IMG/VR virus record: IMGVR_UViG_3300013126_005772
Span: 1-26,695 of that record
Strand: one strand, 5' to 3'
DNA: 26,695 nt
Origin: a virus
A model generated the notes under the pieces. The model ran no database searches and was not told the DNA's origin. It saw nothing but the letters and a program-made list of their open reading frames with translations. Position numbers and translations under genes: made by a program. Shown here in pieces: positions 1-19,534 of this stretch (the stretch's first letter is position 1; each line of letters begins with the position of its first letter).

Positions 1-516
1 GTGGCACTGAAACCCTGCAAGTCCTGCAAGCACCAGGTCGACACGTCGGCGAAGACCTGCCCCAACTGTGGCGTGGCCAATCCTGGCGTGTCCGCCAAGG
101 AGCAGCTCATCGGCGTCATCATCCTGGTGGTGATCATCGTGGTTGCCTTCAAGGCGTGCTCCGGTGGGAGCGATGAAAAGGAGGCCGCCGCGGCTGCGCC
201 GAAAGTCGATCCGGCCACTTGCCGCAAGGAGCTGGGATGCTGGGCGGAAGAGAAGATCGTCACCGCCAGCATGTCCTGCAAAGAGCCGGTCGAACGCCTG
301 GCGAAGTTCAGCGCGCGCTGGACGGATGGCACCTTCGATATGAAGTTCAGCCGCTATCGCTGGAAGGACCAGGAGCGCGGGATCGTCACCTACCTCGGCG
401 ACAAGATCGAATTCCAGAACGGCTTCGGGGCCTATCAGGGCCACGTTTACGAATGCGATTTCGACCCGTCAATCGATGCGGTGCTGGCAGTTCGAGCCCA
501 GCCCGGGCGGCTGTAA
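1..516 (+). CDS. Zinc-ribbon single-pass membrane protein, first gene of a candidate RexAB-like module
   Basis: The 171-aa product opens with a zinc ribbon (two CxxC knuckles at Cys6/Cys9 and Cys20/Cys23), followed by one membrane helix at about residues 35-52. A C-terminal domain of about 115 residues then carries four cysteines (74, 80, 93, 152) that could form disulfides, which would fit an outside location with the ribbon in the cytoplasm. The gene starts with GTG on the first base of the window, so the true start or promoter may lie upstream. It ends 22 bases before the next gene and is probably co-transcribed with it. I do not recognise a named family beyond the ribbon. Its role is inferred only from position: it may be an accessory or sensor part of the module, or an unrelated prophage membrane protein. 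Confidence 0.8.
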   Translation: MALKPCKSCKHQVDTSAKTCPNCGVANPGVSAKEQLIGVIILVVIIVVAFKACSGGSDEKEAAAAAPKVDPATCRKELGCWAEEKIVTASMSCKEPVERLAKFSARWTDGTFDMKFSRYRWKDQERGIVTYLGDKIEFQNGFGAYQGHVYECDFDPSIDAVLAVRAQPGRL

Positions 517-538
517 TAACCACCAGTAAGGGATAACC

Positions 539-1609
539 ATGGCTGAGTCTGTAACCAAGACGATCCACTACAAGCGGGCTGTTATCTCCGGCGGTGGCAA
601 CTTGCAGGAGATCCTCGGTCGGGTATTCGCCGAAGGAAGCCCTGCGCACCGTGTCGGTCAGCGGAAAGAGATTGTCAGCGCGGACACCAATAGCTTCCGC
701 GTGATCAACCACAAGCGTGATTACAACGGCATGCTCTTCTGCCAGATGATCTACTTCGAGCCGGGGCGTAGCCAGGCTTACATCACGCTCAACGATGACG
801 CCGAGTCGTATGCGCTGGACGCACTGACCAACGAGGCGCTCAACAACATCGAGGCGCCGGCCGAGCGCGAGCAGCACCGCAAAGAATTCGTCGATTCGTT
901 CCTCTACTTCGGCGTCTTCGAGAATCACCTGGTAGTGCTGCAGTCCAGTGCCCTGCGCTCGCGCGAGCTGGAAGCGCACCTCGGCTGGCTGATTGGCAGC
1001 TTCGGCGGGGTCGCCATTGGCACGGCCATCATCTTGCAGGATCAGCCGTCTCAGGAAACCTTCGAGCGGATCGCCCGGGCGCCGGTGAAGAAGATCGAAA
1101 TCGGTTCCCCGATGACAACCGCACAGGCTGTTCCAGAGGGTGAGCGTGAGGCGCAGCAGGAAGTTGCCCCGGCCCAGCCGGAGGAAGAGGAGGGGATCGA
1201 TGCCCGCCGTGTGCGGTTCTTCCCGACAGGGTTCGCCGGCGACGTGATCAAAGCTGCCCTTGGAGCCGATTGGTTCAACCGCCTCGATCTGGAGGAGGAC
1301 CTCGACGAGGCGAATCTCAAGGTTAGCCTGGAGATCACCTACGTTCGTCAGACCACGCGGGTCGGGCAGCGGATGCTTGATAACATCGCCACCTCGCTTC
1401 GGCATGTTGATGAGGCAGACGTCAGGATTTCGCTCAATGGGGGTGGCGAGATCAAGGGCAATGACCTGAAACTATCGGGCCCCATATCAGTCGCAAAGCT
1501 GGAGAATGGACTACTCGATGAGGGTGTCCTATACCACAAGATGCACGGCTGGCTGGTTGGGAAACTTCGCCAAGGCGATGCAGATCCTGAGCAAAACGCA
1601 GAAGAGTGA
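539..1609 (+). CDS. RexA-like soluble protein (putative phage exclusion sensor)
   Basis: This 356-aa soluble protein has no signal peptide or membrane segment. An AAGGGA ribosome binding site precedes the ATG. From memory of lambda RexA (279 aa), several blocks line up in the same order: an N-terminal NL..IL stretch (21-27) followed by VG (39-40); FLYFGVFENHLVVL (121-134) with a following helix ending LIG (151-153); KIEIGSPM (185-192); FAGDVIKAALGAD (232-244) with an acidic stretch after it; and ADVRISLNGGGEIKG (293-307). An acidic low-complexity linker (about 195-220) seems to be an insertion relative to RexA. The next gene encodes a four-helix membrane protein, as rexB follows rexA. The family assignment is an inference from motif order and context. 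A Kiwa KwaB-type protein is the main alternative. Confidence 0.6.
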   Translation: MAESVTKTIHYKRAVISGGGNLQEILGRVFAEGSPAHRVGQRKEIVSADTNSFRVINHKRDYNGMLFCQMIYFEPGRSQAYITLNDDAESYALDALTNEALNNIEAPAEREQHRKEFVDSFLYFGVFENHLVVLQSSALRSRELEAHLGWLIGSFGGVAIGTAIILQDQPSQETFERIARAPVKKIEIGSPMTTAQAVPEGEREAQQEVAPAQPEEEEGIDARRVRFFPTGFAGDVIKAALGADWFNRLDLEEDLDEANLKVSLEITYVRQTTRVGQRMLDNIATSLRHVDEADVRISLNGGGEIKGNDLKLSGPISVAKLENGLLDEGVLYHKMHGWLVGKLRQGDADPEQNAEE

Positions 1610-1612
1610 TAG

Positions 1613-2143
1613 ATGAAAAAGCAAGGTGGATGGACAGGAACTGGCGTGCTGGCAGTGGTGCTTTCCGCTGCCATGGGCGCGCTCCTGGCTCATTACATTG
1701 TGGCTTCGTTCGATCGCACCACTGCACCGGTTGTGCAGTGGGGGCTGTTGACGGTTTTCCTATTGCCGATGGGCTTTGCCATCCAGCTATGGGTCAACCT
1801 GAATAGCATCCGTGAGACGAAGGGCTTGTCCGGTAGCGAGCGCCGTCGAATCCGTGAAACGGTGTCGGAAAAAATACGGCAAGTTCAGATCGCGCTCACG
1901 TTCTACCTGGTGTCCGCCATCATCATTGCGTTCGGACTGTGGTTCTCACCCGCGAGTTGGAAGGTCTACCACGCGGTGACGGTTTATACCGGGCTGAGCT
2001 TGGGGATCAGCATCTCCAGCTTCTTCCTGATCCTGCATGAGTGGCGTGAGATATCTAACTTCAAGAGCAAGGTTTTCGAGCGCAGCGCTCGCAATAAACA
2101 ACTGGCGAAGAAGCTGGACGCGTTGAACCCGAAGAGCAAGTAA
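1613..2143 (+). CDS. RexB-like four-helix membrane protein
   Basis: The 176-aa product has four hydrophobic segments at about residues 10-32, 40-62, 91-111 and 121-142. A highly charged loop with several Arg and Glu residues lies between the second and third, and the C-terminal tail is basic. Lambda RexB (144 aa) has the same layout of four helices, a basic loop after helix 2 and a short tail after a small-residue-rich last helix. Here that helix reads GLSLGISISSFFLIL. The start lies three bases after the stop of the RexA-like gene, so translation is probably coupled. If the analogy holds, it would form an inner-membrane channel that depolarises the cell when its partner senses infection. A Kiwa KwaA-type protein, also with four helices, is an alternative. 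A strong terminator follows directly. Confidence 0.6.
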   Translation: MKKQGGWTGTGVLAVVLSAAMGALLAHYIVASFDRTTAPVVQWGLLTVFLLPMGFAIQLWVNLNSIRETKGLSGSERRRIRETVSEKIRQVQIALTFYLVSAIIIAFGLWFSPASWKVYHAVTVYTGLSLGISISSFFLILHEWREISNFKSKVFERSARNKQLAKKLDALNPKSK

Positions 2144-2160
2144 GGCCATTGAGTTACTGG

Positions 2161-2186
2161 AAGGCGCCTAGATGGCGCCTTTTTTT
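2161..2186 (+). terminator. Rho-independent terminator of the RexAB-like unit
   Basis: A perfect eight-base-pair stem (AAGGCGCC and GGCGCCTT) closes a five-base loop and runs into an uninterrupted T tract. It lies 18 bases after the stop of the four-helix membrane gene and isolates the three-gene unit from the phage genes downstream. Confidence 0.9.
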
Positions 2187-2786: not shown

Positions 2787-4040
2787 TCACTCCGCTTGCA
2801 TCCTCTGCCACTCCCGATCCACTGCCCGCTGGGCATTGGACTTGCTCGCGTAGAGGTGCGTCAGGCGCTTGGGCTTGGTCTGATCGCCGGCGGTGAGTTT
2901 CTTCTGCTCGCCTGTTTTCTCGTCGCGGTACCAGGCAACCACGCCGGTGTAGTCGCCGTCGTGGTCGGCCAGCAGATCCACGTCATCGCCGTCGGGCAGC
3001 TTGGATTCCAGCTCCAGGCTGGTGGTGTAGCTGTCCGGCGTGAAGCTGTGGTGCAGGTTGCCGCCCAGCCAGACGATGGCCGCGATCTCGGCCTTGATGC
3101 CGAGCAGGCTGTAGGTCTGGTCGGGGGTCAACTCCGGGCGCCCCTTGGCCAGCGTGTAGCTGAGCGTGGCGGTACCGCGCTGCAGGCGGCCCCACTCGGC
3201 GCGGGCGGCGCGCAGGGCGCTGGCCTGGTCGGTGTAGCTGTGGCGCAGCTCCTTGAGGTTGTCGCCGCCGCCGGCGATGGCCTCCTTCTTCTCCGCGCTG
3301 TTGATCTCGTAGTAGTACGCCTTGACGCCGGTGTAGCTGTCGCGGTCGGCCTGCAGGAAGCGGTGCTGGTCGCCGTCGGCCCGGGTGAGGGTGACGTGGG
3401 GCAGGCTCAGGCCGCTGGCGGTGGTGCTCTTGCCGGCCGGCATGAACAGCAGGCGGCCGGCCTTCACCGTGCTGATGGCGTCGTGTTGCAGGCCCAGGCG
3501 GCTCAGCAGGTTGGCGTCGCTCTCGTTGGCCTGGTCCAGGTGCAGCAGCTCGATGGCCGCCAGGATGGGGCTGACCACGGGTGCCAGGCCATGGGCCGCG
3601 GCGATCGAGGCGATGACGGCGCCGAGGGTGGCACCGTCCCAGCTGCGTTCGCGCTTGACCTTGAGGCCGCCGCGCAGGTCCGCGCTGCGGGCGCGGATGC
3701 TGAGCACGTCCGGCGCGCCGCTGTGCTCGGTCTCGTCCACGGTGTAGCTGCCCTTGTCGACCAGGCCGGTATCGCTCCAGCCCAGCCAGAGGCGCACGGT
3801 GGCGCCCCGGGGCGGGATGGCCAGCAGCCCGTCGTGGTCGCTGAGGGTGATGTCGAGCTGGTCGGCCTCCATGCCGCGGTTGTCGGTCAGCTCGATGCTG
3901 ACCAGGCGCTGCTCGATGTCGAGGGTGATGTCGCGGCCGTTGACCACCACGCGGCAGATCGGCTTGGGGTAGGACGTCGCCTCGCGGTAGCGGTTGGCCG
4001 CGTCACCGAGCAGCGCGCCGGCTTGGCTGAGCACGCTCAC
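2787..4040 (-). CDS. D: Tail hub protein gpD (late control D family)
   Basis: The 417-aa protein matches P2 gpD, a baseplate hub or spike-base component homologous to T4 gp27 and VgrG N-terminal domains. The order of features fits: an N-terminal strand region with the VVVNGRDIT and ELTDNRGMEADQL motifs (about 30-62), a central region with SYTVDETEHSG, and a C-terminal part with YYYEINSAEKKE and ASALRAARAEW, ending in a basic helix. It starts with GTG and overlaps the stop of U by four bases (GTGA), so the two are translationally coupled. It is somewhat longer than P2 gpD (387 aa). Assignment is firm from sequence and order. Confidence 0.95.
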   Translation of the reverse strand: MSVLSQAGALLGDAANRYREATSYPKPICRVVVNGRDITLDIEQRLVSIELTDNRGMEADQLDITLSDHDGLLAIPPRGATVRLWLGWSDTGLVDKGSYTVDETEHSGAPDVLSIRARSADLRGGLKVKRERSWDGATLGAVIASIAAAHGLAPVVSPILAAIELLHLDQANESDANLLSRLGLQHDAISTVKAGRLLFMPAGKSTTASGLSLPHVTLTRADGDQHRFLQADRDSYTGVKAYYYEINSAEKKEAIAGGGDNLKELRHSYTDQASALRAARAEWGRLQRGTATLSYTLAKGRPELTPDQTYSLLGIKAEIAAIVWLGGNLHHSFTPDSYTTSLELESKLPDGDDVDLLADHDGDYTGVVAWYRDEKTGEQKKLTAGDQTKPKRLTHLYASKSNAQRAVDREWQRMQAE

Positions 4041-17960: not shown

Positions 17961-18772
17961 GCCGCGCGCTCCTGCTCGCTGGCGAACTGCGCATAGGCCC
18001 GGGCGAGCTTCACGTCATAGAGGTTGCGGGCGTAGTTCGGGCCGTTGTAGCGGCGGGCGAACTCGGTCCACTTCTTACCCTTGAGCGCCTTGTGCAGCGC
18101 GGGGTCGGTTTCGATGAAGGTGACGAAGGCGTCGAGCTGGGCGGCCTCGCTCAAGGCCATGGTGTCCGCGAAGTGCTGGGCATCCAGGTAGCCGAGGCGC
18201 TGCCAGTGGTAGCCCATGATCTGGAACAGACCCCAGCTGGCGGACTCGAGCGCGGCGGCCGCGTGGATCTGCTGTGCCTGGGCGAGACGCTGATGCTCGG
18301 CGGTACCGCCGATGTAGCCGCCGGCCTTGCGGTTGACCAGGGCGGGATGCTTGGCGGCTAGTGCGCCCGCCTGTGCGGCGCCGACGCCGTAGGCCTGCAG
18401 GCGCTCGAACATTACGTGCCGTTCGAACAAGATCACCGGGCGGCCGTTGCTGGCGAAGCCCTCGCCGCGGCTCTCCACCTGGTTGACGGCCATGACGCTG
18501 GCCAGCGGCACGCCGAGGCGGTCGGCGGCCTGCTGGAGGTCCTTCCGCTTGAGGTAGCGCGAGGTGTCGTAACCGTGAAGCGCCGCCAGTGTCTTCGGGC
18601 CGGCGACGCCATCGTCCACCAGACCGGCGCGGCGCTGAAAGGCAACAACGGCGCGCTCGGTCTGCTCACCGAAGTCGCCGTCCACGGCTACAGCGAAGCC
18701 GGCCAGCGTGAGTGCGGCTTGCAGGTTGCGCACGGCGAGGCCGCGCGAGCCGATGATCAGCAGCTCGCTCAT
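17957..18772 (-). CDS. Endolysin: peptidoglycan-binding domain plus N-acetylmuramidase (DUF3380)
   Basis: The 271-aa endolysin has an N-terminal PG_binding_1 domain (about 5-65; RGLAVRNLQAAL, VDGDFGEQTERAVVAFQ, GVAGPKTL). A C-terminal DUF3380-type muramidase domain follows (about 78-268). Visible catalytic-domain motifs are NQVESRGEGF with probable catalytic Glu100, ASWGLFQIMGYHW (178-190) and RRYNGPNYARNLYD (240-253). There is no signal peptide, so export depends on the holin. It replaces the K lysozyme of P2, as in phiCTX-type phages. Its start overlaps the holin stop by four bases. Confidence 0.95.
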   Translation of the reverse strand: MSELLIIGSRGLAVRNLQAALTLAGFAVAVDGDFGEQTERAVVAFQRRAGLVDDGVAGPKTLAALHGYDTSRYLKRKDLQQAADRLGVPLASVMAVNQVESRGEGFASNGRPVILFERHVMFERLQAYGVGAAQAGALAAKHPALVNRKAGGYIGGTAEHQRLAQAQQIHAAAALESASWGLFQIMGYHWQRLGYLDAQHFADTMALSEAAQLDAFVTFIETDPALHKALKGKKWTEFARRYNGPNYARNLYDVKLARAYAQFASEQERAA

Positions 18773-19083
18773 ACGCCTTCCACCTTACGCTCGAATAGCC
18801 GCTTGGCGCCGGCGCGGACGCCTTCGGCGCCGACCAGGCCGATGATGCCGCCGAAGAACGGGGCCGCATCCAGCGGGATTCCGAACAGCGCCAGGCCATT
18901 GCTGGCGGCTAGGGTGATCAGGCCGCAGACGACGGACTCGATGGCGATCCGGCGCAGCGAGCCGCCGCCGAGCATCAGCCGCGAGCCGGCGATGCCCATA
19001 GAGAGCGCCGCGGCGTAGATGATGGGGTAGTTCTCCTGTACCCAAGCGGCCAGACGCGCCAGGGTTTCCGGTTGGTCATGCAT
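18769..19083 (-). CDS. Holin (lambda-type phage holin family 3)
   Basis: The 104-aa product has three hydrophobic segments at about residues 20-38, 46-66 and 74-92 (PIIYAAALSMGIAG; IAIESVVCGLITLAA; APFFGGIIGLVGAEG). It ends in a charged tail (KRLFERKVEGV), as expected for a class I holin. An in-frame ATG three codons upstream (19092) gives a protein starting MKRM. Such dual starts can yield holin and antiholin forms. The start overlaps the upstream papain-like gene, and the endolysin follows with four-base overlap. It takes the place of P2 gene Y. Confidence 0.85.
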   Translation of the reverse strand: MHDQPETLARLAAWVQENYPIIYAAALSMGIAGSRLMLGGGSLRRIAIESVVCGLITLAASNGLALFGIPLDAAPFFGGIIGLVGAEGVRAGAKRLFERKVEGV

Positions 19084-19534
19084 GCGCTTCATTCCACTGT
19101 CCGTTGAGCGTGAGGGTGTTGATGTGCTGGACGACTTCGCCCAGCTGAGCCGGGCTGTAGCGTTGCGGCATGGGGAAACCGAGCGCGGCGGCGCAGAACT
19201 CGCTGCAGAACCAGCGACGCCGGCTATGCAGGCCGACCGGCAGCAGCTGGCTGCCGAACAGGCCGAAGAAGTCGTAGCCCTGTCCGGCGTTGGCGCGGAA
19301 GACACGGGCGATCTGGCGATAGTCAGCCCAGGGCAGCGGGATGAGGTCCCAGTGTTCGAGGTTCAGCTCGATGTGCTTGGCACGCACGCCGCCGTCCATG
19401 GCCGAGGCGGACAGCCAGCGACCATCGGCCAGGACCAGCTCGCAGTGGCTGTACTCGGAGCGCGTCCAGAGGCGAACCAGGCGGTTGAACAGCGTGCCGC
19501 GGCCCTTGTAGAGGGCGAGGTAGATCAGTCCCAT
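19076..19534 (-). CDS. Papain-like (permuted NlpC/P60, YiiX-type) protein in the lysis cassette
   Basis: The 152-aa protein has no counterpart in P2 itself. The motif SHCEL near the N-terminus supplies a candidate catalytic His30. FCSEF near residues 109-113 supplies a candidate nucleophile Cys110, in the His-before-Cys order of circularly permuted papain-like enzymes (YiiX/LRAT class). YDFFGLFG (87-94) also fits this fold. It starts within the end of X and overlaps the holin start. Homologues in Pseudomonas phages are, as I recall, sometimes mislabelled as enoyl-CoA hydratase, and nothing here supports that. It could cleave peptide or amide bonds in the cell wall, or act in particle assembly. 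Confidence 0.78.
   Translation of the reverse strand: MGLIYLALYKGRGTLFNRLVRLWTRSEYSHCELVLADGRWLSASAMDGGVRAKHIELNLEHWDLIPLPWADYRQIARVFRANAGQGYDFFGLFGSQLLPVGLHSRRRWFCSEFCAAALGFPMPQRYSPAQLGEVVQHINTLTLNGQWNEAHA

Follow-up and report, generated by a model that had tools for sequence, protein, structure and literature searches.

RexAB-type systems are known from phage lambda, from the three actinophages CarolAnn (PMC6426606), Sbash (PMC6426596) and Butters (PMC7542560) and from Pseudomonas putida (PMC12894663), so that the view taken in a preliminary description of the DNA studied here, that Rex systems outside the lambdoid phages are little described, no longer holds. By early 2026 the number of RexAB-like systems on record stood at only five (PMC12894663). 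Work on lambda and P. putida has partly established a model in which a DNA-binding sensor dimer activates a membrane effector, so that membrane integrity is lost and growth stops (PMC12894663). RexA itself consists of two domains, connected by flexible loops, and has been proposed to alternate between a closed and an open state; its architecture is shared by RdgC (PMC11077077).

Here we describe a gene pair in a stretch of phage DNA of 26,695 nucleotides (the window, by which we mean that whole stretch). With a probability of roughly three in four, the pair is a RexAB-type exclusion (abortive-infection) module, an accessory "moron" of a P2-like Pseudomonas prophage that would be expressed during lysogeny. 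It is a two-gene operon with a modelled RexA-like fold in its first product and a four-helix topology in its second; its genes are obligately paired, diverge together and are under purifying selection, and relatives of the pair have been placed repeatedly in accessory slots, including the slot of rex in lambda.

The gene pair and its slot in a P2-like phage

The window is that of a P2-like Pseudomonas phage, as had been proposed. It carries the P2-like (Peduoviridae) families of major capsid, portal, terminase, sheath and tape-measure proteins, and its nearest named relatives at the DNA level are Citexvirus phages of P. aeruginosa, for example Dobby and Sirocco.

The rexA-like gene (539..1609, plus strand) starts with ATG behind a probable ribosome-binding site, AAGGGA, read from the sequence at 528..533 on the same strand. 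It encodes a soluble protein of 356 residues with a pI of 5.0, a member of PHROG 3482, and is supported as a gene by its ORF, by the fold match described below and by purifying selection. Three nucleotides (TAG) separate it from the rexB-like gene (1613..2143, plus strand, ATG start), whose 176-residue product has a pI of 10.4 and, according to its ORF, hydropathy and model, four membrane helices. Folding predicts an intrinsic terminator at 2159..2183 (plus strand), a 10-bp hairpin followed by a T run, at -17 kcal/mol and z -4.0, with 1 of 200 shuffled sequences equally good. ORFs, hydropathy and the hairpin thus confirm the arrangement given in the preliminary description, a 356-residue soluble protein followed after three bases by a four-helix membrane protein and a strong terminator. 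The terminator was not picked up by a simple terminator scan, probably because G-U pairing uses up the T run. A promoter scan upstream of the pair returned no sigma-70 site, and a scan of the window for tRNA and Rfam RNA found none.

Against relatives at a measurable synonymous distance, dN/dS is 0.03 for the soluble protein and 0.04-0.05 for the membrane protein, and a membrane-protein gene lies directly downstream in all 37 non-redundant homologues of the former; both genes are therefore real. The distances among the soluble proteins and those among their partners correlate closely (Mantel r 0.93, a value reached in 0 of 2000 permutations). The GC3 of the pair is 0.73 versus 0.95 in the neighboring tail gene, a low value that is typical of an acquired accessory gene.

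A gpD-like late tail gene (2787..4040, minus strand), recognized by profile match and locus comparison, is convergent with the pair and serves as the landmark of this P2-like slot. On the other side, at 1..516 (plus strand), lies a gene whose product is matched by profile to phrog_13160 and combines a zinc ribbon with a single membrane segment. It is not part of the module, since a different gene holds its place in relatives, and we regard it as a second accessory gene in the slot of the pair. In Dobby and Sirocco, the gpD flank holds a regulator instead of the pair. Because other genes occupy it in relatives, the slot looks like a variable accessory site. In a related P2-like Pseudomonas phage (OQ658368; locus L118, 3142-4536), the equivalent position is taken by the gene of a 464-residue protein that matches nothing in Pfam; it may be a further accessory or defense gene. 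Within the window, a 64-residue ORF follows the pair at 2279-2505 and has its own, nearly identical GGCGCC-type terminator (2470-2504), which suggests another small accessory gene.

The soluble protein and the fold of RexA

By sequence, the soluble protein falls in phrog_3482 (E=9e-98), which is annotated as of unknown function, and neither protein of the pair is matched by a named family in Pfam, NCBIfam or PADLOC. None of the 37 homologues matched Pfam RexA (PF15969) or PADLOC RexA at E-values up to 10, whereas lambda RexA itself, run as a control, did. BLASTP of the 356-residue protein against lambda RexA gave E=0.28, nothing above chance, and hhalign of the family against lambda RexA gave a probability below 1%. 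The RexA profile was built from four and then from seven RexA sequences, some of them at 46% identity or less, and the family profile was enlarged as well; even so, column-shuffled RexA scored equally well in 49 of 200 cases. Several blocks of the protein had been proposed to run in the order of RexA. They are indeed collinear in an unthresholded profile alignment, but the score is no better than that of shuffled RexA, and collinear blocks alone are not evidence.

The same shuffle test, applied to CarolAnn gp44, an accepted RexA homologue, gave weak support (7 of 200 shuffles equally good), and the hhalign E-value of lambda RexA against the CarolAnn gp44 group was not significant. Profile homology to PF15969 therefore does not define the wider RexAB type. 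A profile comparison of the present family with CarolAnn gp44/gp43 gave no match.

Structure is more informative. Our model of the soluble protein, made with the 37 homologues as alignment, is of moderate confidence (pLDDT 75, pTM 0.71). In a Foldseek search of 350,542 PDB chains, its only significant matches were two chains of lambda RexA (8TWQ; E=3.7e-5 and 6.7e-5, probability 1.00, 369 columns, nearly full length); the third match had E=0.09 and a probability of 0.08. RexA had been named in the preliminary description before this search was made, and the model thus supports the reading that the protein shares the fold of RexA, the sensor of phage lambda. The whole-protein TM-scores against RexA are low (0.27 and 0.33, rmsd 18.6), which would be expected if the two domains, joined in RexA by flexible loops, are oriented differently.

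A relative of Kiwa (KwaA/KwaB) would share the general plan of a membrane protein with a soluble DNA-binding protein, and KwaB/DUF4868 had been put forward at the outset as the family whose better match would count against RexA. It is no better match, while the RexA fold match is significant, and we regard a kinship with Kiwa as hardly conceivable: Pfam and PADLOC give no KwaB match in the 37 homologues, the family has no profile match to the KwaB proteins we fetched, and the model's 50 best fold matches in the PDB include no chain of KwaB, although KwaB structures have been deposited. With neither a profile nor a fold match, an identity as KwaB (PF16162) was rejected.

Four parts can be told apart in the model. 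Residues 1-190 (539..1108, plus strand) form an N-terminal alpha/beta domain, which from the order of secondary structure would correspond to the split globular domain of RexA; within it lies the most conserved motif of the protein, S-x-LYFGV-x-x-NH at residues 120-130. Residues 191-231 (1109..1231, plus strand) are a disordered, weakly conserved linker (pLDDT about 35) at the position of the RexA hinge. Residues 232-327 (1232..1519, plus strand) form a second alpha/beta domain, the probable counterpart of the RexA dimerization domain according to the model and to a profile path that is non-significant alone. Finally, residues 328-345 (1520..1573, plus strand) form a C-terminal helix that, by its order in the model, may correspond to helix alpha8 of RexA, which returns to the globular domain. 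An acidic insertion and a larger size had been thought to mark a new branch; neither does. The former belongs to a variable linker, whose residues 191-226 correspond to 15-37 residues with a net charge of -6 to +6 across the family, and sizes of this order were already known, from CarolAnn gp44 (370 residues) and from existing RexA-Pfam members of 328 and 343 residues.

The membrane protein and its conserved cytoplasmic loop

The membrane protein has PHROG relatives in phrog_16807 and phrog_4510, both annotated as of unknown function. Hydropathy places its four membrane segments with starts at residues 12, 45, 93 and 122. AlphaFold models it as a helical bundle (pLDDT 88), for which a search of the PDB returned no significant fold match. 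The idea that it copies RexB holds for the four-helix topology but not for homology, as sequence and profile comparison with RexB (PF15968) gave no match. For RexBpp of P. putida, likewise, HHpred found no homologue, and sequence similarity to RexB is lacking (PMC12894663); since RexBpp lacks it too, RexB homology does not define the wider RexAB type. In an Enterobacterales locus (L140, 1501-2998), a 343-residue RexA-Pfam member is followed by a 154-residue membrane protein that the Pfam RexB model misses, and divergence seems to be more rapid in RexB-type partners than in RexA.

Conservation in the membrane protein is strongest in a basic central loop at residues 64-90 (1802..1882, plus strand), which contains L-S-x-S-E-x-R-R and is predicted to be cytoplasmic by the positive-inside rule. 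The peak is at residues 71-80, where 97% of homologues have E76 and 92% have R79; further conserved positions (E146, F150, K151, R157) lie in the C-terminal cytoplasmic helix, and variation is greatest in membrane helix 1 and in the outer loops. In Sbash gp31, substitutions in the central cytoplasmic loop abolish defense (PMC6426596). We infer that the central loop receives the signal from the RexA-like protein.

As a RexAB-type module, the pair would probably defend its host against competing phages through a shutdown of the infected cell. The two genes would be expressed in the lysogen. The RexA-like protein, probably a hinged two-domain dimer that binds DNA, would probably sense incoming phage DNA or DNA-protein intermediates. 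Once triggered, it may engage the conserved central loop and C-terminal helix on the cytoplasmic side of the RexB-like protein, which would then oligomerize and permeabilize the inner membrane, so that growth stops and the infection is aborted. A point against this reading is that the soluble protein is acidic, whereas lambda RexA is basic; yet CarolAnn gp44, which is acidic as well, binds DNA (PMC11077077).

The two proteins carry strong opposite net charges (-18 for the soluble protein and +13 for the membrane protein), which are compatible with direct binding. Such binding would also suit an arrangement with reversed roles, in which toxicity and antiviral action reside in the soluble protein, which the membrane protein sequesters until infection, as gp30/gp31 of Butters acts according to the summary of PMC7542560 given in PMC12894663. 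We consider this arrangement unlikely here. The effector is the membrane protein in all four systems of lambda, CarolAnn, Sbash and P. putida (PMC12894663), and searches of the soluble protein found no enzymatic motif or toxin family.

Distribution of the family and comparison with known systems

Relatives of the pair occupy several positions in prophages. First, the pair follows a CI-type repressor gene of the same strand, at a distance of 29-727 bp, at 13 non-redundant loci. Escherichia phage Perceval carries it between CI and Kil-Gam-Bet, exactly the position of rexAB in lambda, and in Acinetobacter phages it also follows the repressor. A remote Pseudomonas member of 353 residues (E=4e-16) is again preceded by a CI-type repressor and followed by a four-helix protein. 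Second, at nine loci, the window included, the pair faces gpD of P2-like phages. Third, at 12 loci (SfIV, for example), it is found in lambdoid phages between Q and the holin, in antisense orientation to the late genes.

These positions bear on two further readings. The soluble protein could be a DNA-binding modulator of the RdgC/RexA type that acts on the prophage switch or on replication and is tethered or buffered by the membrane protein, with exclusion at most a side effect. The RexA fold is common to RdgC, RexA of lambda by itself biases the lytic switch (PMC11077077), a search of viral folds with the model returned a phage RdgC weakly and non-significantly at E=0.33, and CI adjoins many copies of the pair. 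Many other copies, however, lie far from the switch, at the gpD flank or between Q and the holin; moreover, an obligatory membrane partner with a conserved cytoplasmic loop fits a signaling pair better, and rexAB of P. putida has no effect on the repressor promoter (PMC12894663). We therefore regard this reading as unlikely, if the least unlikely of the alternatives. The other is a pair for the timing of lysis, in which the soluble protein would regulate the membrane protein, a holin or antiholin. Holin genes adjoin many of the lambdoid copies, and one phage annotation names the membrane protein Holin-X. But in the slot between Q and the holin the pair is antisense to the lysis genes, elsewhere it is beside CI, the soluble protein has the modeled RexA fold, and the window has its own, separate holin at 18769-19305. 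A role in lysis thus seems improbable, well below the switch and reversed-role readings. The Holin-X label comes from one of two Acinetobacter phage records (PQ859669 and MZ675741), the other calling the protein hypothetical, and it is probably wrong.

The family that we favor as exclusion modules is broad. One scan of viral contigs returned 161 relatives, and members were found in 9 of 399 sampled Pseudomonas species genomes and in 44 of 5,426 complete E. coli genomes, where the RefSeq copies are labeled "hypothetical protein"; one Acinetobacter phage record bears the tag "DefenseFinder protein". A literature search found no description of the family in SfIV or Acinetobacter phages, and exclusion data were found for no member of the sequence family. 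It is about as likely as not that PHROG 3482 and its relatives are a separate, ancient and broad RexAB branch, present in Pseudomonas, Enterobacterales, Acinetobacter, marine bacteria of the Oceanospirillales type and one Cytophagales metagenome-assembled genome, which moves among three or more prophage slots without dependence on the immunity switch. Its signal would pass through the conserved loop, on the cytoplasmic side, of a membrane effector that has no sequence relation to RexB.

Three other loci deserve mention. In a Pseudomonas genome (L131, 983-2400), a remote RexA-like protein of 309 residues (E=4e-6 to the family) is accompanied by a 163-residue membrane protein; this pair is possibly a separate branch. 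In Pseudomonas sp. 8Z (L105, 987-6605), a 97% identical rexA-like gene and its partner stand beside apparent exopolysaccharide genes (flippase- and ligase-like ORFs), and no phage gene was recognized in the part read by eye, so that the module may also travel outside prophages. Finally, the unannotated Salmonella phage MS2 LVA (MZ614453; L133, 2501-3802) has an unmistakable lambda-type RexA (46% identity) and then a RexB-like gene, directly behind a CI-type repressor.

If the family excludes phages, a 70-year-old model system would be far more widespread than annotated; PADLOC, the defense-detection library that we tried, recognizes only the narrow family of lambda RexA. The natural variants in the family are diverse and could be used to ask what RexA senses and by what means it opens RexB, notably whether the conserved E76/R79 loop takes the signal.

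With the RexAB type, the pair and its relatives have in common a RexA fold, a downstream four-helix protein and carriage by temperate phages, often beside CI; sequence or profile homology to PF15969 or PF15968 is not among these shared features. Compared with lambda RexA/RexB (PF15969/PF15968; 8TWQ), the fold of the soluble protein and the order of a soluble gene and a four-helix membrane gene are alike, and several homologues of the window pair share the slot behind CI. Neither protein of the window, however, has detectable sequence similarity to its lambda counterpart, the soluble protein is 77 residues longer and acidic rather than basic, and the window copy lies beside gpD of a P2-like phage, whereas that of lambda lies in the immunity operon. 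RdgC gives only the weak fold match noted above and has no membrane partner. CarolAnn gp44/gp43 are similar in size (370/178 residues) and likewise combine an acidic soluble protein (gp44, net charge -7) with a basic membrane protein, and CarolAnn, Sbash (gp30/gp31) and Butters (gp30/gp31) resemble the reading proposed here in being exclusion systems expressed from the prophage; unlike the present pair, they have Actinobacteria as hosts, and the roles in Butters are reversed. RexABpp of P. putida prophage P1 (PP_5643/PP_5644; PMC12894663), compared by its published description, differs in a soluble protein of about 330 residues, a length estimated from the 37.5 kDa of the tagged protein. Taken as a residue fingerprint, the RexBpp positions whose mutation has been published matched 0 of the fetched loci. 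RexABpp is like the window pair in being a Pseudomonas prophage pair with a RexA fold and a four-helix partner that lacks RexB similarity, and it is CI-linked, as are relatives of the window pair (PMC12894663). The kind of system is therefore already known, as the RexAB type of the actinophages and, since 2026, of P. putida, and what is new is a widespread unnamed branch.
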